From NCBI GenBank assembly GCA_017999985.1, contig JAGNKU010000006.1, positions 1-64,000 on the forward strand: a stretch of 64,000 nucleotides of DNA. Direction: 5' to 3'. Position numbers and translations under genes: made by a program. Origin of the DNA: Phycisphaerae bacterium (GTDB lineage Bacteria; Planctomycetota; Phycisphaerae; UBA1845; Fen-1342). A model generated the notes under the pieces. That model saw only the letters and a list, made by a program, of their open reading frames with translations, made no database searches and was not told where the DNA came from. Positions 235 through 7,809 of the stretch are shown here, in pieces. Every line of letters begins with the position of its first letter. Within the stretch, counting starts at the first letter, position 1.

Positions 235-1917
235 CTAACCACGACGGCCGGGCGCGAACGCGAGCAGACGCGCCAGCGAGCCGGCGAGCTGATCCAGGGC
301 GGCGGAGTCGGGCAGAGTGACCGACAGCTTCAAGCGACCATCGGTGTCATGTTCCACGCACTCCGCTAATTGCCGCCGAACGGCTTCGACCAAGTGCTCC
401 TGGCCGCCCGCCGGCGCTCCGGCGGGGGCCGACTCGGAAGGCGCGGACGGGGGCGTCGGCAACAGTTCTTCGACAAACGCGAACGCGGCACCGAGCAGCT
501 TGCCGGCCGCCAGCCCGACTCGCTCGCGCCGCGCGTAGCGCTCGGCTTCCGCGGTCTGACGGGCTTTCTCGCTCTCATCGACGGGTGCATCGGGCGGCGC
601 GCCCAGGAGGACCTCAAGCCGGTTTTTGAGCTCGCTCGCACCGCTGGCAAGATCCACGGTGTCGACGTCTGACGCAACGTCGAGGGCGGCCAGCGCGAGC
701 TCCTGCTTCGCGGAGAGCGTCCCCAGCAGGTTCTCCTCGATCGTGCCCTCAGTGATCAGGACGTACACCTGCACGGGGTTCTTCTGGCCCATCCGATGCG
801 CGCGCGCGACACGCTGCTCGAGCACGGCCGGGTTCCACGGCAAATCCACGTTCACGACGGTGTCGGCAACCTGGAGGTTCAGCCCGGTCGCACCGGCGTT
901 GGTGGTCACGAACAACCGGCAGGCGGGGTCATTCTGGAAGCGCTGTACCAGGGATTGCCGCTGCTTCTGGGGAATCGAGCCGTCGAGCCGCACGTAGGCG
1001 GCGCGCCGCCTACGGATCAGCGGCTCGATCAGCCCCAGCATGGTTGTCCACTCTGAGAACAAGACGATCTTGTGGCTCGCCTCCGCCAGGAGCGCGCCGA
1101 GCAGGTCGTCGAGCGCGGCCAACTTGCTCGAATAGCCCGGCTTCTGCTTGTCAACCAGGTACGTGCTGTCGGCCGACATGCCGCACATGAGCAACGCCTT
1201 CCGCAGGCGAAGCAGATCCATCTCGCTGATGTAGGGCTTGCGAACAATGGCGCTGACGATCCGCAGGTGCGTCCGGTGCAATTCCAACTGCTCCGCGGTG
1301 GGCGCAATGCGGACGAACTCTGTGGACCGCGGCGGCAAATCGCGCATCACCGAAGCGCGCGTGCGTCGCAACAGGATCGGCGCGAGCCGCTCGCGCAGCT
1401 CGGCGAGGTTCTTGTACCCCAGCACCTTGCCCTTGTCGTCCACGACCCGGTGACAATTGAAGAAGCGAAACACGGGACCGAGCCGCCGGTCATCGATGAA
1501 CTCCACGACGGAAAACAGCTCATCGAGCCTGTTTTCCAGCGGTGTGCCGGATAGCACCAGCGCGTAGCGGGAACGCAGGCCCTTGATCACGCGGCTGGTC
1601 TGCGCCTCCCAGTTCTTAATGCGCTGGCCCTCGTCGAGAATGATCAGGTCCCACGGGGCCTGCTCGATCGCCAGGATATCCCGCAGCACTTGTTCATAGT
1701 TGCAGATGGTGAAGAAACACGCGTTGCCGTATTGGCGGGCCCGCTCGGCGGCGCTGCCCAGCACGAGTTGGCAGTCCAGCGCGGAAAACCGCCGAATCTC
1801 GGCGCGCCATTGCGACTTGAGCGTCGCGGGGCAGACCACCAGTACCCGGCGGATGTTGGCCTCGCGCCGCAGCAGCTCGGCCACGCCGATGCCCTGGATC
1901 GTCTTGCCCAACCCCAT
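235..1917 (-). pseudogene. SNF2-family DEAD/DEAH helicase, 5'-truncated
   Basis: The open frame (560 codons from the first ATG) begins exactly at Walker A, MGLGKTIQ (residues 1-8). It carries the SNF2 motifs in order: DEGQ box (95-98), SGTPLENR (123-130), the helicase C half with LFSEW (286-290), and QRVARAHRMGQ (368-378), followed by a ~180-residue Ala/Glu/Pro-rich tail. SNF2 ATPases need about 25 residues before Walker A (Q-motif region), and bacterial members usually have a further N-terminal domain. In-frame codons upstream of the ATG read GRAILADD, the expected residues before GLGKT, but an in-frame TGA follows only about 18 codons upstream of the ATG. The gene body is therefore real but its 5' part is missing, and it is probably a non-functional remnant. 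A decayed tRNA-Thr-like sequence lies directly upstream. Confidence 0.8.
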
Positions 1918-2254: not shown

Positions 2255-2626
2255 TCAGCGCGCAGCCGTGTAGCCGAGCTGGACCAGGGCCTCGTCCTCG
2301 TTCGCGGCGAACTTGAGCACCTTCGTCAGCTTCATGATCTCGAAGACCTTCATCAGCTCCTTGCGCAAGCTGCAGATGATGACGGTGCCCTTGATCGCCG
2401 TCGATTTCTTGTGCAGGTTCATCAGCACGCCGATCGCGGCCGACGCGAGGAACTGCACCTTCCCGAAATCGAGGATCAGCTTCTTGACGTCCATTTCGTC
2501 CACCAGCCGGTAGAGTTCTTTGGCGATCGCCTCAATCTGCTGCGCCTCGAGCAGCCGGGCCTCCTGGAAGTCCACGACCGTGACGTCCCACATTTTCTGA
2601 ACCAGGATCTTGGGGGTGGTGCTCAT
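2255..2626 (-). CDS. STAS-domain anti-sigma-factor antagonist
   Basis: A 123-residue single STAS domain, the normal length for SpoIIAA/RsbV-type antagonists. The strand-helix pattern VTVVDF...KKLILDFGKVQFLASAAIGVL fits the family. Ser62 in FLASAAIG sits where the phosphorylatable Ser of SpoIIAA lies. Such proteins bind anti-sigma (HATPase) kinases in partner-switching pathways and are controlled by Ser phosphorylation. The ATG at 2626 is preceded by GGAGAAG at good spacing; the same frame is open far upstream, but that part is low-complexity Arg/Ala-rich and unlike a protein. No cognate kinase or phosphatase lies in the window. It is transcribed away from the GTPase operon at 3308. Confidence 0.88.
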   Translation of the reverse strand: MSTTPKILVQKMWDVTVVDFQEARLLEAQQIEAIAKELYRLVDEMDVKKLILDFGKVQFLASAAIGVLMNLHKKSTAIKGTVIICSLRKELMKVFEIMKLTKVLKFAANEDEALVQLGYTAAR

Positions 2627-3140
2627 GCGGCTTCTCCGGCGTAGAACTCGACATCCGCTTAAGTCAGCACCCGCATTGTACCGTTCCGGCGCCGACTGGC
2701 ACGCGGAATCCGTCGCCGGCGACCCGGCACGGCGCGTTTTCCGCGATTCACTGGCGGCAACCGTCCGTGACCCCGGCCCATCCGTAAGCGCAACTCCGAC
2801 GCGCCACCCAGGCCAGGTCAGGCCGCTGTGGCACGCACGCGCTGCCGTGCGCCGCGGCAGCATCACGCCAGCCCGCGGAGCGCGCACGTCGGTCCACGCG
2901 GGCAGGTTGGCGACACGAAGGTTCCATGCGGTCATCCGGCAGCCGACGTGCCGGACATGAAACGGAGCGCCGGCGGCGCGAGGCGGCGCCGCACCGAGCA
3001 AGGTCCGCTGCGGCGCGTTCGCGGCGCTGGCTCCAGCGGCGCGCCCGCGCGTCAACAACGGACGGATAAACGAGCGCGATGCGCGCCCGGCCGCGGTCGT
3101 CGCCGAGGTCACGCGTGATAATGCTGCCGCGCCGCACGTC

Positions 3141-3307: not shown

Positions 3308-3769
3308 ATGGACATGACAACCCTCCAAAACCAACTGACATCCATACGGGCAAGTGACAGTGAGCTTGCCGAGCGTCTGTCTGAGCTGGATGCCAAGCTC
3401 GGAGTCTGGTTGTCGATTGTCGAGGCGGGGCACGCCGCGCTCCTTGAGGTGGCCCGGAAACTCGTGCCCAACGCTGTGCCCCGCGAGGCCACTGTACCCC
3501 TGGTGACGCCCGAGCCCCCGGGTGCGACGCCCGCGACGCCGAGTGCGGATCCCGCCACGTCGGCGCCCCTGCCCGCCGACGAAGCGTTCCTCCAGACGCT
3601 CGACCACGAGACCGCCCAGGCGATCCGGGTCCGGCGGCGGCTGTGTGGGGGCAACCGCAGCGTCCAGCAGCTCCTGGAGGAATACCGGGCCGCGCAAGCC
3701 CAGCAGCCAGCCGAGCAAGAGAACAAGCCGGCGGCGGGACGTGGTTGGTGGAGACGAAAGAATGACTAG
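3308..3769 (+). CDS. Small helical protein, first gene of GTPase operon
   Basis: 153 residues with no family I recognise by sequence. Residues 5-50 are heptad-like and probably coiled coil (LQNQLTSIRASDSELAERL). Residues 58-92 are a Pro/Thr/Ala-rich linker, and the C-terminal third is a basic helical segment (AQAIRVRRRLCGGNRSVQQLL) ending in WWRRKND. Its stop overlaps the start of the next gene by 8 nt, so the two are translationally coupled. A structural or adaptor role with the coiled-coil partner is an inference from the context. The ribosome-binding site is weak (GAAGAACG before the ATG); a second ATG lies two codons in. Confidence 0.7.
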   Translation: MDMTTLQNQLTSIRASDSELAERLSELDAKLGVWLSIVEAGHAALLEVARKLVPNAVPREATVPLVTPEPPGATPATPSADPATSAPLPADEAFLQTLDHETAQAIRVRRRLCGGNRSVQQLLEEYRAAQAQQPAEQENKPAAGRGWWRRKND

Positions 3770-4772
3770 CACCACAGGTAAACTGCTGGACGTGCCCGAT
3801 CTGAAGGTGGCAGAGATGGAGTCCCTCGGCCGGGCGGTGATCGCGGAAATGCGGGCGATGCGCGAGCTGCTGGCGGCGCGGACCACGGCCCTGGAGGACT
3901 GCCGCAACGCCCTGCTCGAGTTTGAGAAGGAGCTCACGCAGCGCCACGAGGAAGTCGAGCGGCGCGAAAGCGAGTTCTGCGATCGCTACGAGCAGCGCGA
4001 AGCCGATCTGACCGCGCGCGAGCAGAAATGCGCGCAGTCGGAAGCCCAGGTCAGCGCCGAGACGAAGCGCATCGCAGCCGCGCAGGCCGAACTGAAGCAG
4101 CAGCAGACCGAGCTCGAGCCGCGGCTGAAGTCCGTGGCCGCCGCGGAAGCTGATCTGGCCAAGCGCGCGGCCGCGCTGGTTGAACAGGAACAGCAGGCCG
4201 CCGCGGCCGCCAGTGCCTTGGAATCAAAGCGGACGGCGTTGGAGGAAGACCTGGCCCGCACGCGCGTTGTCGAAAGCGACCTCGCCAAGCGCTCCGACGA
4301 AGTCGCCGCGGCCAGCGCCGAGGTGGAGAAGCTGCGCAAGACGTTGACTGCCCGCGAGCAGGAACTGTCCTCCGAAAGCGAGGAGTTGCAGCGGCAGGCG
4401 GCCGAGATGCAGGCCCAGCAGGCCGCGCTCGAGCAGGCGGCTGCGGAACTGGAGCAGCGTCGTGCCGCGTTCGACGAGGAGCAGGCCGCGCTGCAGCGCG
4501 CCCAGGCGGAAGCCGCCACGGCCCGCAACGAACTGGAGAGCGCTGCCACGAACCTCGCGAGCCTGCAGAAGCAGCTCCAGGCGGAGCTGGATGCGCTGGC
4601 CGCGCAGAAAGGCGAGCTGCTCGCGAGCCCCGGTCAGCCCGAAAAGGGCAGTGGCGGCGGGAAGCGCGGTGCGGCGGCGCTGAAGCCCGCGGACCAGAAA
4701 GCCAGCGAGTCGCTGGAACGGTTCCAGAAGCTGTGCCGCGACGCCAAGCGGAAGGCAATTGGATCAGTGTAG
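3762..4772 (+). CDS. Long coiled-coil protein of GTPase operon
   Basis: 336 residues. From about residue 30 to 270 it is an almost unbroken Ala/Glu/Gln/Lys heptad pattern (READLTAREQK, AAAEADLAKRAAAL, TAREQELSSESEELQRQAAE), which predicts a long rod-like coiled coil. A Gly/Lys-rich break (PEKGSGGGKRG) follows, and then a distinct basic C-terminal motif SLERFQKLCRDAKRKAIGSV. The start at 3762 overlaps the previous gene and has GGAG in front of it; the frame is open further upstream but that part shadows the previous gene. There is no signal peptide or membrane segment, so it is cytoplasmic. It probably scaffolds the other operon products (inference). Confidence 0.8.
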   Translation: MTSTTGKLLDVPDLKVAEMESLGRAVIAEMRAMRELLAARTTALEDCRNALLEFEKELTQRHEEVERRESEFCDRYEQREADLTAREQKCAQSEAQVSAETKRIAAAQAELKQQQTELEPRLKSVAAAEADLAKRAAALVEQEQQAAAAASALESKRTALEEDLARTRVVESDLAKRSDEVAAASAEVEKLRKTLTAREQELSSESEELQRQAAEMQAQQAALEQAAAELEQRRAAFDEEQAALQRAQAEAATARNELESAATNLASLQKQLQAELDALAAQKGELLASPGQPEKGSGGGKRGAAALKPADQKASESLERFQKLCRDAKRKAIGSV

Positions 4773-4797
4773 AGCCTTGTGAGGTGAGGATCGGGCC

Positions 4798-5772
4798 GTG
4801 AACCTGACACTGTTTGCCGGTAGCAAGAAGGCCGCGAACGCGCGGAGTTCGCCACTCCACGGCGACTTCGTTCCCGCGGCACCCACGAAACCGGTCGCGG
4901 ACCTGCTGGAGCAGGCGTTGCGAGCGGGTCGCCTCGGGCACTTCGTGGCGCAGCCCTCGCCGTGGGCGAACCAGCCGCGCTTCGAAACCGTGCTGGCCGA
5001 AGCCGCCCGCGCGATCGATGAACGCTTCGCGCTGGTGCCGGCGGGAATCGTGTCGATTCCCCTGACCACCTGTGATGATCCCGGTCAGCCGGAGACGGAC
5101 TGCGAAACGCAGGAGTTCATGCTGGCCCGGCACGCTGTGACCAATGCCGACTTCCAGCACTTCGTCGACGCCGAGGGATACCGCGACATGAGTCTGTGGC
5201 CAGAGGAAATCTGGCCGCACCTCATCAGCTTCAAGGACATGACCGACACGCCGGGGCCGCGCTACTGGCAGAACGGGCGCCACGATCGACGGCTGGCCGA
5301 TCACCCGGTGGTGGGGATCTCGTTCTATGAGGCGGCGGCCTATGCGCAGTGGGCGGGCTACCGGCTGCCGACCGAGGCGGAGTGGCAGATGGCCGCCAGT
5401 TGGCAGATCCGCAGCGAGGCCAATGTCCACCAGCGCTATCCGTGGGGCGACAGTCTCGACCTGCAGCGCTGCAACATCTGGGCCTCGGGGCACAACGGCA
5501 CGCTGCCGGTGGGGGCCTGTCCCGGCGGCGCGGCGCCCAACGGTGTGCTGCAGCTCATCGGGAACGTGTGGGAGTGGACGAATTCGGATTTTCTGTGTGC
5601 GGACACGAACGGTCAGCGGGTCGTGGGGGACTCGCGCATGAACAGCATTCGCGGCGGGGCGTTCGATACGTATTTCGCGTGGCAGGCCACGGCGACGTTC
5701 CGGACCGGTCTGGCCTGCGTGGCGCGCTCCAACAACGTCGGGTTCCGGTGCGCGCTGCACGCGGTGGTGTGA
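4798..5772 (+). CDS. FGE-sulfatase-fold (SUMF1-like) protein of GTPase operon
   Basis: 324 residues. The first ~78 are unassigned; residues 78-324 are a formylglycine-generating-enzyme/SUMF1 domain, shown by VPAGIVSIPL, RHAVTNADFQHFV, RLPTEAEW (189-196), YPWGD, GNVWEW (255-260), RGGAFD (285-290) and GFRC (315-318). True FGE enzymes use a Cys pair five residues apart near the C terminus. Here only the second is present (C307 in LACVARSNN); the first position is Arg302. Classical sulfatase-activating oxidation is therefore doubtful, and the domain may act as a binding or C-type-lectin-like module. No sulfatase gene is in the window. The start is GTG with GAGGTGAGGA upstream, 25 nt after the coiled-coil gene. 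Confidence 0.85.
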   Translation: MNLTLFAGSKKAANARSSPLHGDFVPAAPTKPVADLLEQALRAGRLGHFVAQPSPWANQPRFETVLAEAARAIDERFALVPAGIVSIPLTTCDDPGQPETDCETQEFMLARHAVTNADFQHFVDAEGYRDMSLWPEEIWPHLISFKDMTDTPGPRYWQNGRHDRRLADHPVVGISFYEAAAYAQWAGYRLPTEAEWQMAASWQIRSEANVHQRYPWGDSLDLQRCNIWASGHNGTLPVGACPGGAAPNGVLQLIGNVWEWTNSDFLCADTNGQRVVGDSRMNSIRGGAFDTYFAWQATATFRTGLACVARSNNVGFRCALHAVV

Positions 5773-5812
5773 CCGGTGGCGTTCCCCCGACGGACGGGAC
5801 CGCGCTGAGGAG

Positions 5813-6700
5813 ATGACTGTGGCAACGGCGACTACCACGACAAACGGCATGCGATGCCTGATTTGCGGGACACTCAATCAGTCCCAGGCCGTCTTGTGCA
5901 CGGGCTGCTCCGCGCCGATGGCGCTGGGGCACGAGGCCGAGGGCCAAGAGCGTGAGCCGCGGATCGTGAGCATGGTCGGCGACAGCAATGTCGGCAAGAC
6001 CGTCTACCTGGGGTTCCTCCTGGACATGCTCTCGCAGCGTTCCGACGAGTTCGAGGCGGTCCCGCGCGGACCGTACTCGGTGGACCTGCCGCAACTGGTG
6101 ATCAGCCACATGGCACACCGCATGTTTCCACCGAAGACGCCCATGGAAGCCAACCAGTGGAACTGGGCCTACTACCAGGTGCGCCGCCGGCAGCGCCGCG
6201 CCAAATGGGTAGACCTGGTCATGCCGGACATGGCCGGCGAGGCAATCGCCGCAGAAGTCGCCGCGCCCTCGACGTTTCGCGTCATCGACAGTCTCCTGAG
6301 CAAGTCGGCCGCCATTCTGGTGCTCGCGGACGCGGCGCTGGCGGGCAGCGGCTCCGCCCAGCCGGACTTCTTCGCCCTGAAGATGCTGAGTTACATCGAT
6401 GGGATGTTCCCGCGCAAGCAGAACAAACGGGTGCCGATGCCAATCGCGATCGTGCTGACCAAGGCCGACTACGTGCCGGAGTGCTTCGACAACCCGCGGC
6501 AGTTCGCGCAGGCCAACCTCAACCGCATGTGGCACATGGTCGAGAGCCGCTTCGAGCGCGTGGAGTTCTTCGCCAGCAGCGTCGTGGGCTCCCTGGGCTA
6601 CGCCACGAGCGAGGAGCAAAAGTACGTGACGCCGATCCCCCTGCACACCGCTCTGCGCGGCGTCCTGGAGCCGTTTGGATGGATCCTCGACCAGATGTAA
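5813..6700 (+). CDS. Zinc-ribbon GTPase, DO-GTPase-like
   Basis: 295 residues. An N-terminal zinc ribbon (C15xxC18...C29xxC32) is followed by a TRAFAC-type GTPase domain: Walker A GDSNVGKT (56-63), a G3-like DMAGE (139-143) and G4 LTKADY (215-220). The layout resembles the double-GTPase (DO-GTPase2) families described by Aravind and colleagues from predicted conflict or signalling operons; that assignment is from memory of the family and was not searched. It is the only NTPase of the operon. AGGAG abuts the ATG at 5813, so the GTG at 5819, six nt from AGGAG, may be the true start (two residues shorter). The next gene overlaps its 3' end by 22 nt. Confidence 0.82.
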   Translation: MTVATATTTTNGMRCLICGTLNQSQAVLCTGCSAPMALGHEAEGQEREPRIVSMVGDSNVGKTVYLGFLLDMLSQRSDEFEAVPRGPYSVDLPQLVISHMAHRMFPPKTPMEANQWNWAYYQVRRRQRRAKWVDLVMPDMAGEAIAAEVAAPSTFRVIDSLLSKSAAILVLADAALAGSGSAQPDFFALKMLSYIDGMFPRKQNKRVPMPIAIVLTKADYVPECFDNPRQFAQANLNRMWHMVESRFERVEFFASSVVGSLGYATSEEQKYVTPIPLHTALRGVLEPFGWILDQM

Positions 6701-7809
6701 CCGGCGTGCGGCCGCACGCGGACGCCGTCGTCGCCGAGCAGGCCGTCTTCACGTCGATCCGCTCGCCGTGGGGCCGCGGCTATCGGCTCATCGCCAGCAG
6801 CCCCGGGATCAGCCCCGAGGAGAAGCGCGAGATCGTGCAGCGGGCCCCCTCGCACCAGAGCATCTGCGACGCCTCGGCGCACGGCTGCGGCCTGGCCAGC
6901 TTCGCGATGCAGAGCGGGCGGCGCTGCATCTTCTGCGCGCAGAACGCCGGCGTCGAACACAGCGCCCGCGGCGACCACCGCGTCCACACCCACGTGTTGA
7001 TCCTCACGCCAGCCGACTACTGCCGCCTGCGCTGCGATCCCCTGGCCATCTGGACCGCCGCGCGCGCCGCCCTCGCCGGCAAGTGGCTGAGCGAAGAGCC
7101 ACCCGTCGCCCTGGCACAACTGGAACTCGACGCGCGCGCCGCGATCGAGTACCCCGCTGCCCCCGCTACGTGGTCACCGAGCACGGACGACTTGGACCGC
7201 CTGCTCAGTGTCCTGTTGCACCTCCTGGGCGGCCGCCGGGTGCTCGTCCAGGGCCCGCTCGACGCCTTGGGGGTGCTGGCCTGGATCTGGTCCGGCGTGC
7301 CGGCGGCGCTGCGCGCGGCGCTCTCGCTCTCGTGCGGGCTGCGTTACTCGCCGGGGCGGAGCTTTCCGCTGATTCTGCTCGAGGGACCGTGTAGCGAGGC
7401 GGAGCGGAGCGGCAACGGCGCGGAGTTCACGGTCGTCGACTGGGCCGCCGCGACCCGGCCGGAGGCGTCGGAGTTTGATCCGTGGCTGAGCCTCGTGCGC
7501 CGGTACTGGGCGGCCGGCCGCTTAGCCGAATTGAATCCGATCTCGGCGGAGCTGACGGAGGCATGCACTGCGCCGGTGCTGGCCCGCGTGGCCGGGCTGT
7601 GCGCCGATCACGCGCGGCTGGCTGACGCCGATCTGGAGAGCATCGATGAATTGACGGCACGCCACGCGCGCAGCGCGTGGACGAATGGCACGGGCGCGCG
7701 GCTGTACGCAGAATTCTGCCACGCCGCGGCCGGGCGGCGTGAGCAACTGCAGCAGCAAGCGGAAGATGCCGGCGCGGCGGCTCAGGATTCCTGCGCCGGG
7801 ATTCGCTGA
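6679..7809 (+). CDS. GTPase-associated protein, GAP1-like
   Basis: 376 residues from the ATG at 6679, which has GGAG at good spacing inside the 3' end of the GTPase gene; a GTG at 6706 is an alternative. The N-terminal part (QAVFTSIRSPWGRGYRLIASSPGIS, then His/Cys-rich CDASAHGCGLASFAMQSGRRCIFCAQNAG and RVHTHVLIL) resembles the N-terminal domain of the GAP1 family encoded beside DO-GTPases. The middle and C-terminal parts are helical (LDRLLSVLLHLLGGRRVLVQG). No catalytic motif is recognised. The 22-nt overlap with the GTPase gene means co-translation and supports a direct partnership. Family assignment is from memory; the biochemical role is unknown. Confidence 0.72.
   Translation: MDPRPDVTGVRPHADAVVAEQAVFTSIRSPWGRGYRLIASSPGISPEEKREIVQRAPSHQSICDASAHGCGLASFAMQSGRRCIFCAQNAGVEHSARGDHRVHTHVLILTPADYCRLRCDPLAIWTAARAALAGKWLSEEPPVALAQLELDARAAIEYPAAPATWSPSTDDLDRLLSVLLHLLGGRRVLVQGPLDALGVLAWIWSGVPAALRAALSLSCGLRYSPGRSFPLILLEGPCSEAERSGNGAEFTVVDWAAATRPEASEFDPWLSLVRRYWAAGRLAELNPISAELTEACTAPVLARVAGLCADHARLADADLESIDELTARHARSAWTNGTGARLYAEFCHAAAGRREQLQQQAEDAGAAAQDSCAGIR

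Follow-up and report, generated by a model that had tools for sequence, protein, structure and literature searches.

A stretch of 64,000 nucleotides from a Phycisphaerae bacterium (phylum Planctomycetota; assembly GCA_017999985.1, contig JAGNKU010000006.1, positions 1 to 64,000; hereafter the window) carries a five-gene operon on its plus strand (3308–7809), which encodes a small protein, a coiled coil, an FGE-fold protein, a DO-GTPase and a GAP1 protein. We propose, at slightly better than even odds (roughly 0.55), that the operon encodes a conserved switch module built around the GTPase, in which GAP1 acts as a GTPase-activating protein (GAP) through Arg97, while the FGE-fold protein and the coiled coil form an effector or scaffold arm. 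The proposal rests on gene content and order and their conservation, the GTPase motifs, the predicted folds, and an invariant arginine with its position in the GAP1 model.

In the proposed module, the zinc-ribbon DO-GTPase, which is Ras/Arf/Rag-like, would be the switch. GAP1, apparently built like the tripartite DENN module of eukaryotes, would dock on the GTPase and insert Arg97 from the β4–β5 loop of its longin domain. This would accelerate GTP hydrolysis on a GTPase that holds a glutamate where Ras has the catalytic glutamine, and thereby turn the switch off. The FGE-fold protein, which lacks the catalytic cysteines and is probably membrane-anchored in some lineages, and the basic-tailed coiled coil would make up an arm that the GTPase, when active, puts in place, with a possible output in polarity, motility or surface organisation. 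A CheA-type pathway encoded upstream in other lineages probably provides the input to the switch, in the way that Frz/RomR acts on MglA/MglB.

Operon layout, GTPase and GAP1

Five open reading frames (ORFs) were confirmed on the plus strand at 3308–3769, 3762–4772, 4798–5772, 5813–6700 and 6679–7809, and their junctions are, in this order, an 8-nucleotide (nt) overlap, gaps of 25 and 40 nt and a 22-nt overlap, exactly as a preliminary description made from the letters of the window had laid them out. The family names given there also hold, as the DO-GTPase, GAP1 and the FGE fold score above their Pfam cut-offs and the coiled coil shows a 3.5-residue periodicity. Relatives have these genes in the same order too, and thus the operon arrangement is not due to chance. 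The claim that GAP1 starts inside the GTPase gene stands in part: the earliest possible start gives the 22-nt overlap in 43 relatives (25 nt in six), but it may not be the true one. This start codon (6679) sits within the codons of the conserved EPF-x-W motif of the GTPase; hence the overlap may be a side effect of coding and is, taken alone, no evidence of coupling. The other candidate start is an in-frame GTG at 6706.

Gene 4 (5813–6700, 295 amino acids) matches PF19975/PF19993 above cut-off (DO-GTPase1, 46.8 bits; DO-GTPase2, 43.8 bits; cut-off 27 each). It alone among the five genes encodes a clear NTP-binding motif, as previously described, with the P-loop GDSNVGKT (5978–6001; G56, G61 and K62 invariant in 61 homologs), the switch II/Walker B motif DMAGE (6227–6241) and TKAD. 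Additionally, the N-terminus bears a single zinc ribbon (C15-x2-C18...C29-x2-C32; 5855–5908), all four cysteines of which are invariant in the 61 homologs. DO-GTPases are defined by a glutamate in Walker B (PMC7159879), and the DxxGE residues D139, A141, G142 and E143 are invariant in 61/61 homologs, which places the protein among them. For comparison, a zinc ribbon is found in 60% of DO-GTPases and two paralogous GTPases in 38% of their systems; the operon has one GTPase gene and the genome one DO-GTPase1 match. A paralogous pair is not required for membership. The AlphaFold2 (AF2) model (pLDDT 92.2) aligns with Arl3, Arl2, RagD, Rap1 and Ras at Z ~15. Glu143 occupies the position of Ras Gln61 and thus unaided GTP hydrolysis may be slow.

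Gene 5 (6679–7809, 376 amino acids) belongs to the GAP1-N2 type (PF20013, 38.6 bits, cut-off 24), as do 72/72 relatives. Together with a coherent structural match, this bears out the earlier assignment to GAP1. An AF2 model built from 72 homologs (pLDDT 92.7, pTM 0.89) predicts a longin domain, a cDENN-like domain and a helical C-terminal domain: residues 16–132 follow the strand–helix order of a longin domain, and a middle α/β part (159–294) precedes the helical C-terminus, as in uDENN-cDENN-dDENN. For the three-domain N-M-C architecture of GAP1 the picture is mixed: three regions can be told apart in the model, but the GAP1-M profile matches only 6/72 members, and these weakly. The top VIA-align matches are DENND1A (Z 9.1, 276 residues aligned, 6.5 Å), DENND10 (Z 8.9, 252, 5.1 Å) and DENND1B (Z 8.8, 239, 4.9 Å), which cover model residues 12–347 at Z values that are moderate. 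Asgard longin, NPRL2, Lst4, FNIP2/FLCN and C9orf72-SMCR8 follow at Z 6–8. Longin/DENN proteins make up 15 of the first 16 rows, and Foldseek likewise returns DENND10 (E 2.4e-4, prob 0.99). The remaining row is TagF of type VI secretion (PDB 9t0n), which aligns with model residues 14–341 at Z 8.0, hinting that TagF may itself have a longin/DENN-like architecture.

Six GAP1 columns (G34, Y35, E93, R97, R212 and R227) are invariant in 72 sequences and G98/G99 are nearly so. Arg97 (codon 6967–6969) lies in the predicted loop EHSARGDHR (6955–6981), between model strands 82–92 and 100–109, which correspond to β4 and β5. The arginine finger of DENN GAPs lies between longin β4 and β5 according to the Avl9 study (PMC12803157), and Arg147 of SMCR8 was observed in the active site of ARF1 (PMC8213707). 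An equivalent arginine is present in 22/22 further GAP1-N2 matches sampled in the phylum, some of them from ordinary-type systems with longer reading frames. They show the pattern [ED]-x-[ST]-x-R or have this arginine after a slightly altered stretch; a scripted pattern picked up 21, and the one left over reads DCSGR. The GAP1 model thus looks like GTPase regulators of the longin-DENN class (DENND1, DENND10, folliculin, SMCR8, NPRL2), with an invariant arginine at the finger position. As far as we have checked, this resemblance is new: the paper that founded the family in 2020 treats GAP1 as a previously unrecognised protein to which it assigns no fold or activity, and the words DENN and longin do not occur in it (PMC7159879); our search of the literature available to us found no report of a bacterial DENN protein. 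We give somewhat less than an even chance to the tentative assignment of GAP1 as a bacterial GAP of the DENN type, which would act on the neighbouring Ras/Arf-like DO-GTPase through an arginine finger.

Partner proteins, distribution and chemosensory genes

Gene 2 (3762–4772, 336 amino acids) has no family above the Pfam cut-off and is a genuine coiled coil, with a hydrophobicity power of 75 at a period of 3.5 residues, 27 at 3.6 and less than 5 at the other periods tested. Its basic C-terminal tail is strongly conserved (LERFQKLCRDAKRKAIG, 4713–4763; FQKLxRDxKRKxxG) and has a counterpart in Pirellulales (MAQFAKLQRDISRRR; FAKLQRDxxRRR), as seen in the alignment, in Pirellulales upstream ORFs and in loci without GAP1. 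A coiled-coil gene with this tail, recognised in at least 74/88 loci, lies 5' of the FGE gene in most relatives and is a core member of the operon across classes, a finding that is new as far as we could check. Gene 1 (3308–3769, 153 amino acids) combines a helical N-terminus, a low-complexity linker and a conserved C-terminal motif (ETAxAIRxxRRLCGGxRSVxxLL). It has no Pfam, NCBIfam or PADLOC match above cut-off, and its homologs occupy the equivalent place in only part of the order and are not found in Planctomycetia; gene 1 is a lineage-restricted accessory. Both proteins had been described as unassigned and are still unnamed, but their standing as core and accessory, respectively, can now be told apart.

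The FGE-sulfatase fold of gene 3 (4798–5772, 324 amino acids) is supported by Pfam (PF03781, E 6.7e-43), and the protein is related to EgtB, OvsA, SUMF2 and FGE. The site of the catalytic cysteine pair of FGE (RGGAFDTYFAWQATATFRTG, 5650–5709) reads RGGAFDTYFxxQAT in 42 homologs and column counts reveal no conserved cysteine, suggesting from the sequence a conserved pseudo-enzyme or a ligand-binding domain. A clear transmembrane (TM) segment is absent from all five window proteins. A hydrophobic segment or hairpin lies at the N-terminus of the FGE protein at several loci of the Pirellulales type, and hence the complex is probably membrane-associated there.

The named relatives comprise Phycisphaerae metagenome-assembled genomes (MAGs) and a distant Planctomycetia/Pirellulales set, in which cultured Blastopirellula marina DSM 3645 carries the core operon. 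Identity to the window proteins within the order is 50–74% for the GTPase and 47–64% for the FGE protein, and 37–40% for the GTPase in the Planctomycetia set. In the 95 homologous loci whose flanks are long enough, the GTPase gene has the FGE gene next to it in 94 and GAP1 in 90, in line with the earlier view that the genes act together. Neither outcome that the preliminary description had named as refuting its system reading came about: the neighbours of the GTPase are conserved, and GAP1 has a structural as well as a family match. The sole locus without an FGE gene encodes a more distant DO-GTPase. GAP1 is present in 75/114 genomes of the order, nearly always as one copy; one genome holds two copies at separate places. 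The GTPase tree largely tracks family labels (10 changes, with a minimum of 6 and a shuffled mean of 23.9), and the operon is mostly inherited with the lineage. Outside the phylum, GAP1 gave no match on plasmids; Corynebacterium glutamicum gave an indication of GAP1-N2. The same operon, with planctomycete-like identity (59–64%), also occurs in three relatives filed as Alphaproteobacteria, Candidatus Binatota and Deltaproteobacteria (loci L106, L125 and L159), which are probably mislabelled MAGs.

Chemosensory genes extend the operon in some Planctomycetia, which is new as far as we have checked. At six loci from several families (L085/L219, L168, L169, L211, L212 and L214), genes for three proteins assigned by Pfam or homology, namely a CheA homolog, a protein with receiver and DUF4388 (PATAN) domains and one with FHA, lie directly upstream of the coiled coil, FGE, GTPase and GAP1 genes (L211:22–11852; L219 on the minus strand). 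Where the sequence reaches that far, a methyl-accepting chemotaxis protein is encoded in L211, L212 and L219 and CheW in L211.

No conserved flanking genes were found among the loci of relatives; the largest cluster resembles an antisense reading of the coiled-coil gene. Upstream of the operon in the window, a divergent gene encodes a STAS-domain protein resembling anti-sigma-factor antagonists (2255–2692, minus strand), which is not beside the operon in relatives. Further upstream lies a SNF2-type helicase gene (235–1917, minus strand), whose product resembles DISARM/Zorya/Dpd helicases at scores far under the family cut-offs.

Alternative explanations

GAP1 might be a guanine nucleotide exchange factor (GEF) or a non-catalytic effector of the GTPase, with Arg97 serving a structural role. 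The best full-length structural matches are the Rab GEFs DENND1A/B and most DENN proteins were first described as GEFs. However, an invariant arginine in the β4–β5 loop is the feature that separates DENN GAPs from GEFs (PMC12803157), and it is flanked here by the conserved E93 and G98/G99; we therefore infer GAP rather than GEF activity and consider the GEF or effector role unlikely. We are equally doubtful that the likeness to DENN merely reflects a common arrangement of a longin-like α/β domain and helices, without homology or shared function. Longin/roadblock/PAS-like sheets are indeed common, and the C-terminal helices of GAP1 match unrelated helical proteins. The predominance of longin/DENN proteins among the structural matches argues against such a coincidence, as do the alignment of longin and middle domain together by DENN/FNIP proteins and TagF only and the position of the GAP1 gene next to that of a small GTPase.

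Several results weigh against the proposed switch module. The DENN match comes from predicted structure only, at Z values (~9) that are moderate and near those for which the tool warns of common arrangements; among the listed matches of the 72 GAP1 members (E up to 1) there is no uDENN, DENN or dDENN Pfam profile, and a PDB profile search with GAP1 gave helical repeats only. Four loci from two families (L213, L215, L216 and L217) have the coiled coil, FGE and GTPase genes without an adjacent GAP1. Since these loci keep the other three genes, the latter appear to be the core, with GAP1 as the regulator; a hydrophobic segment is present at the N-terminus of the FGE proteins of L213, L216 and L217. 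The chemosensory link is absent from the operon in the order of the window, where PATAN is nearly absent (3/114) and CheW is weakly associated with GAP1 (57 genomes with both, 18 with GAP1 only; P = 0.053). Thus the chemosensory link is not general, and a general chemosensory requirement is unsupported by these co-occurrences.

The preliminary description noted that operons of a DO-GTPase with GAP1 have been predicted as conflict or signalling systems. On the conflict reading, which has been proposed for the GAP1-N2 family in general, the operon would serve immunity or defence against phages, and the FGE protein would be its effector. Both the DO-GTPase and the GAP1-N2 family have been predicted to belong to such systems, and some planctomycete systems with GAP1-N2 were described as having FGS (FGE-fold) effectors (PMC7159879). 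Against this, conservation is order-wide and nearly single-copy, the FGE protein is orthologous everywhere and conserved rather than variable, and the GTPase tree mostly follows the lineage. Near single-copy presence, inheritance with the lineage and fixed neighbours are unlike a mobile system with variable effectors. An FNIII-repeat component is missing from the five proteins (Pfam) and from the conserved flanking families, and PADLOC returned nothing for genes 1, 3, 4 and 5 and generic coiled-coil similarity only for gene 2. The suggested linkage to defence genes did not materialise either: neither the PADLOC scan nor the comparison of flanks, which vary among relatives, gave a linked or recurring defence gene. 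The conflict-system reading is therefore not supported, and we regard it as improbable.

Even less probable is that gene 3 encodes an active oxidase or sulfoxide synthase, with the operon serving metabolism or the modification of proteins. The top family scores of gene 3 are of the EgtB/SenA type and its PDB matches include EgtB/OvsA, but it reaches 121.5 bits against an NCBIfam cut-off of 360. Only the C-terminal part is matched: the alignment is confined to the FGE-like region of EgtB, whose N-terminal domain is missing here. On the missing cysteine pair and the scores below cut-off we reject gene 3 as an active FGE or EgtB. Over its full length gene 3 matches SUMF2, the paralogue of FGE that is considered inactive.

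Comparison with known systems

The closest known relatives are GAP1-N2 systems, in particular their planctomycete FGS versions (PMC7159879), which share a zinc-ribbon DO-GTPase with DxxGE, GAP1 downstream and an FGE-fold gene nearby. In contrast to these, the present operon has a single GTPase with one zinc ribbon, neither FNIII repeats nor TM segments in the window proteins, and a fixed coiled-coil partner with a conserved tail; it is vertical and order-wide rather than variable, and in some lineages chemosensory genes precede it. The planctomycete branch, at least, would thus move from conflict system to conserved signalling, with Blastopirellula marina DSM 3645 as a cultured carrier.

The MglA/MglB-RomR-Frz system likewise pairs a bacterial Ras-like GTPase with a dedicated regulator, and MglA is associated with genes for Frz, RomR and, in some cases, PATAN proteins (PMC4316618), as chemosensory and PATAN/receiver genes are linked to the present operon in some genomes. 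Unlike MglA/MglB, the operon encodes a GTPase of the zinc-ribbon DO family, a predicted DENN-like regulator in place of roadblock, and FGE-fold and coiled-coil partners; no roadblock-fold (MglB-type) partner was matched among the five proteins by Pfam. TagF, which aligns with the GAP1 model, differs in sitting in other operons. To our knowledge, it has no known GTPase partner. TagF has an FHA protein as its binding partner (PMC5995506), and some planctomycete versions of the operon include a gene for an FHA protein.

In its predicted structure GAP1 appears to share the order of longin, cDENN-like and helical domains with the DENN/longin GAPs Avl9, DENND6A (PMC12803157; both monomeric), SMCR8-C9orf72, FLCN-FNIP and NPRL2 of GATOR1. 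Like them, it has an arginine, here invariant, in the longin β4–β5 loop and a putative Arf/Rag/Ras-like GTPase partner. Unlike these, GAP1 is bacterial, has no detectable sequence similarity to them, shares an operon with its GTPase and has a predicted activity. The DENN-like model and the invariant arginine at the finger position offer a direct and cheap test of the role of GAP1 in all such systems, and they also bear on the origin of longin-DENN GTPase regulators. If the proposed reading is correct, the eukaryotic pairing of a longin-DENN regulator with a small GTPase, as in Rag, Arf and Rab control, would have a bacterial counterpart across the GAP1 superfamily, connected here with a coiled-coil/FGE-fold effector and, in part of the planctomycetes, with a chemosensory array.

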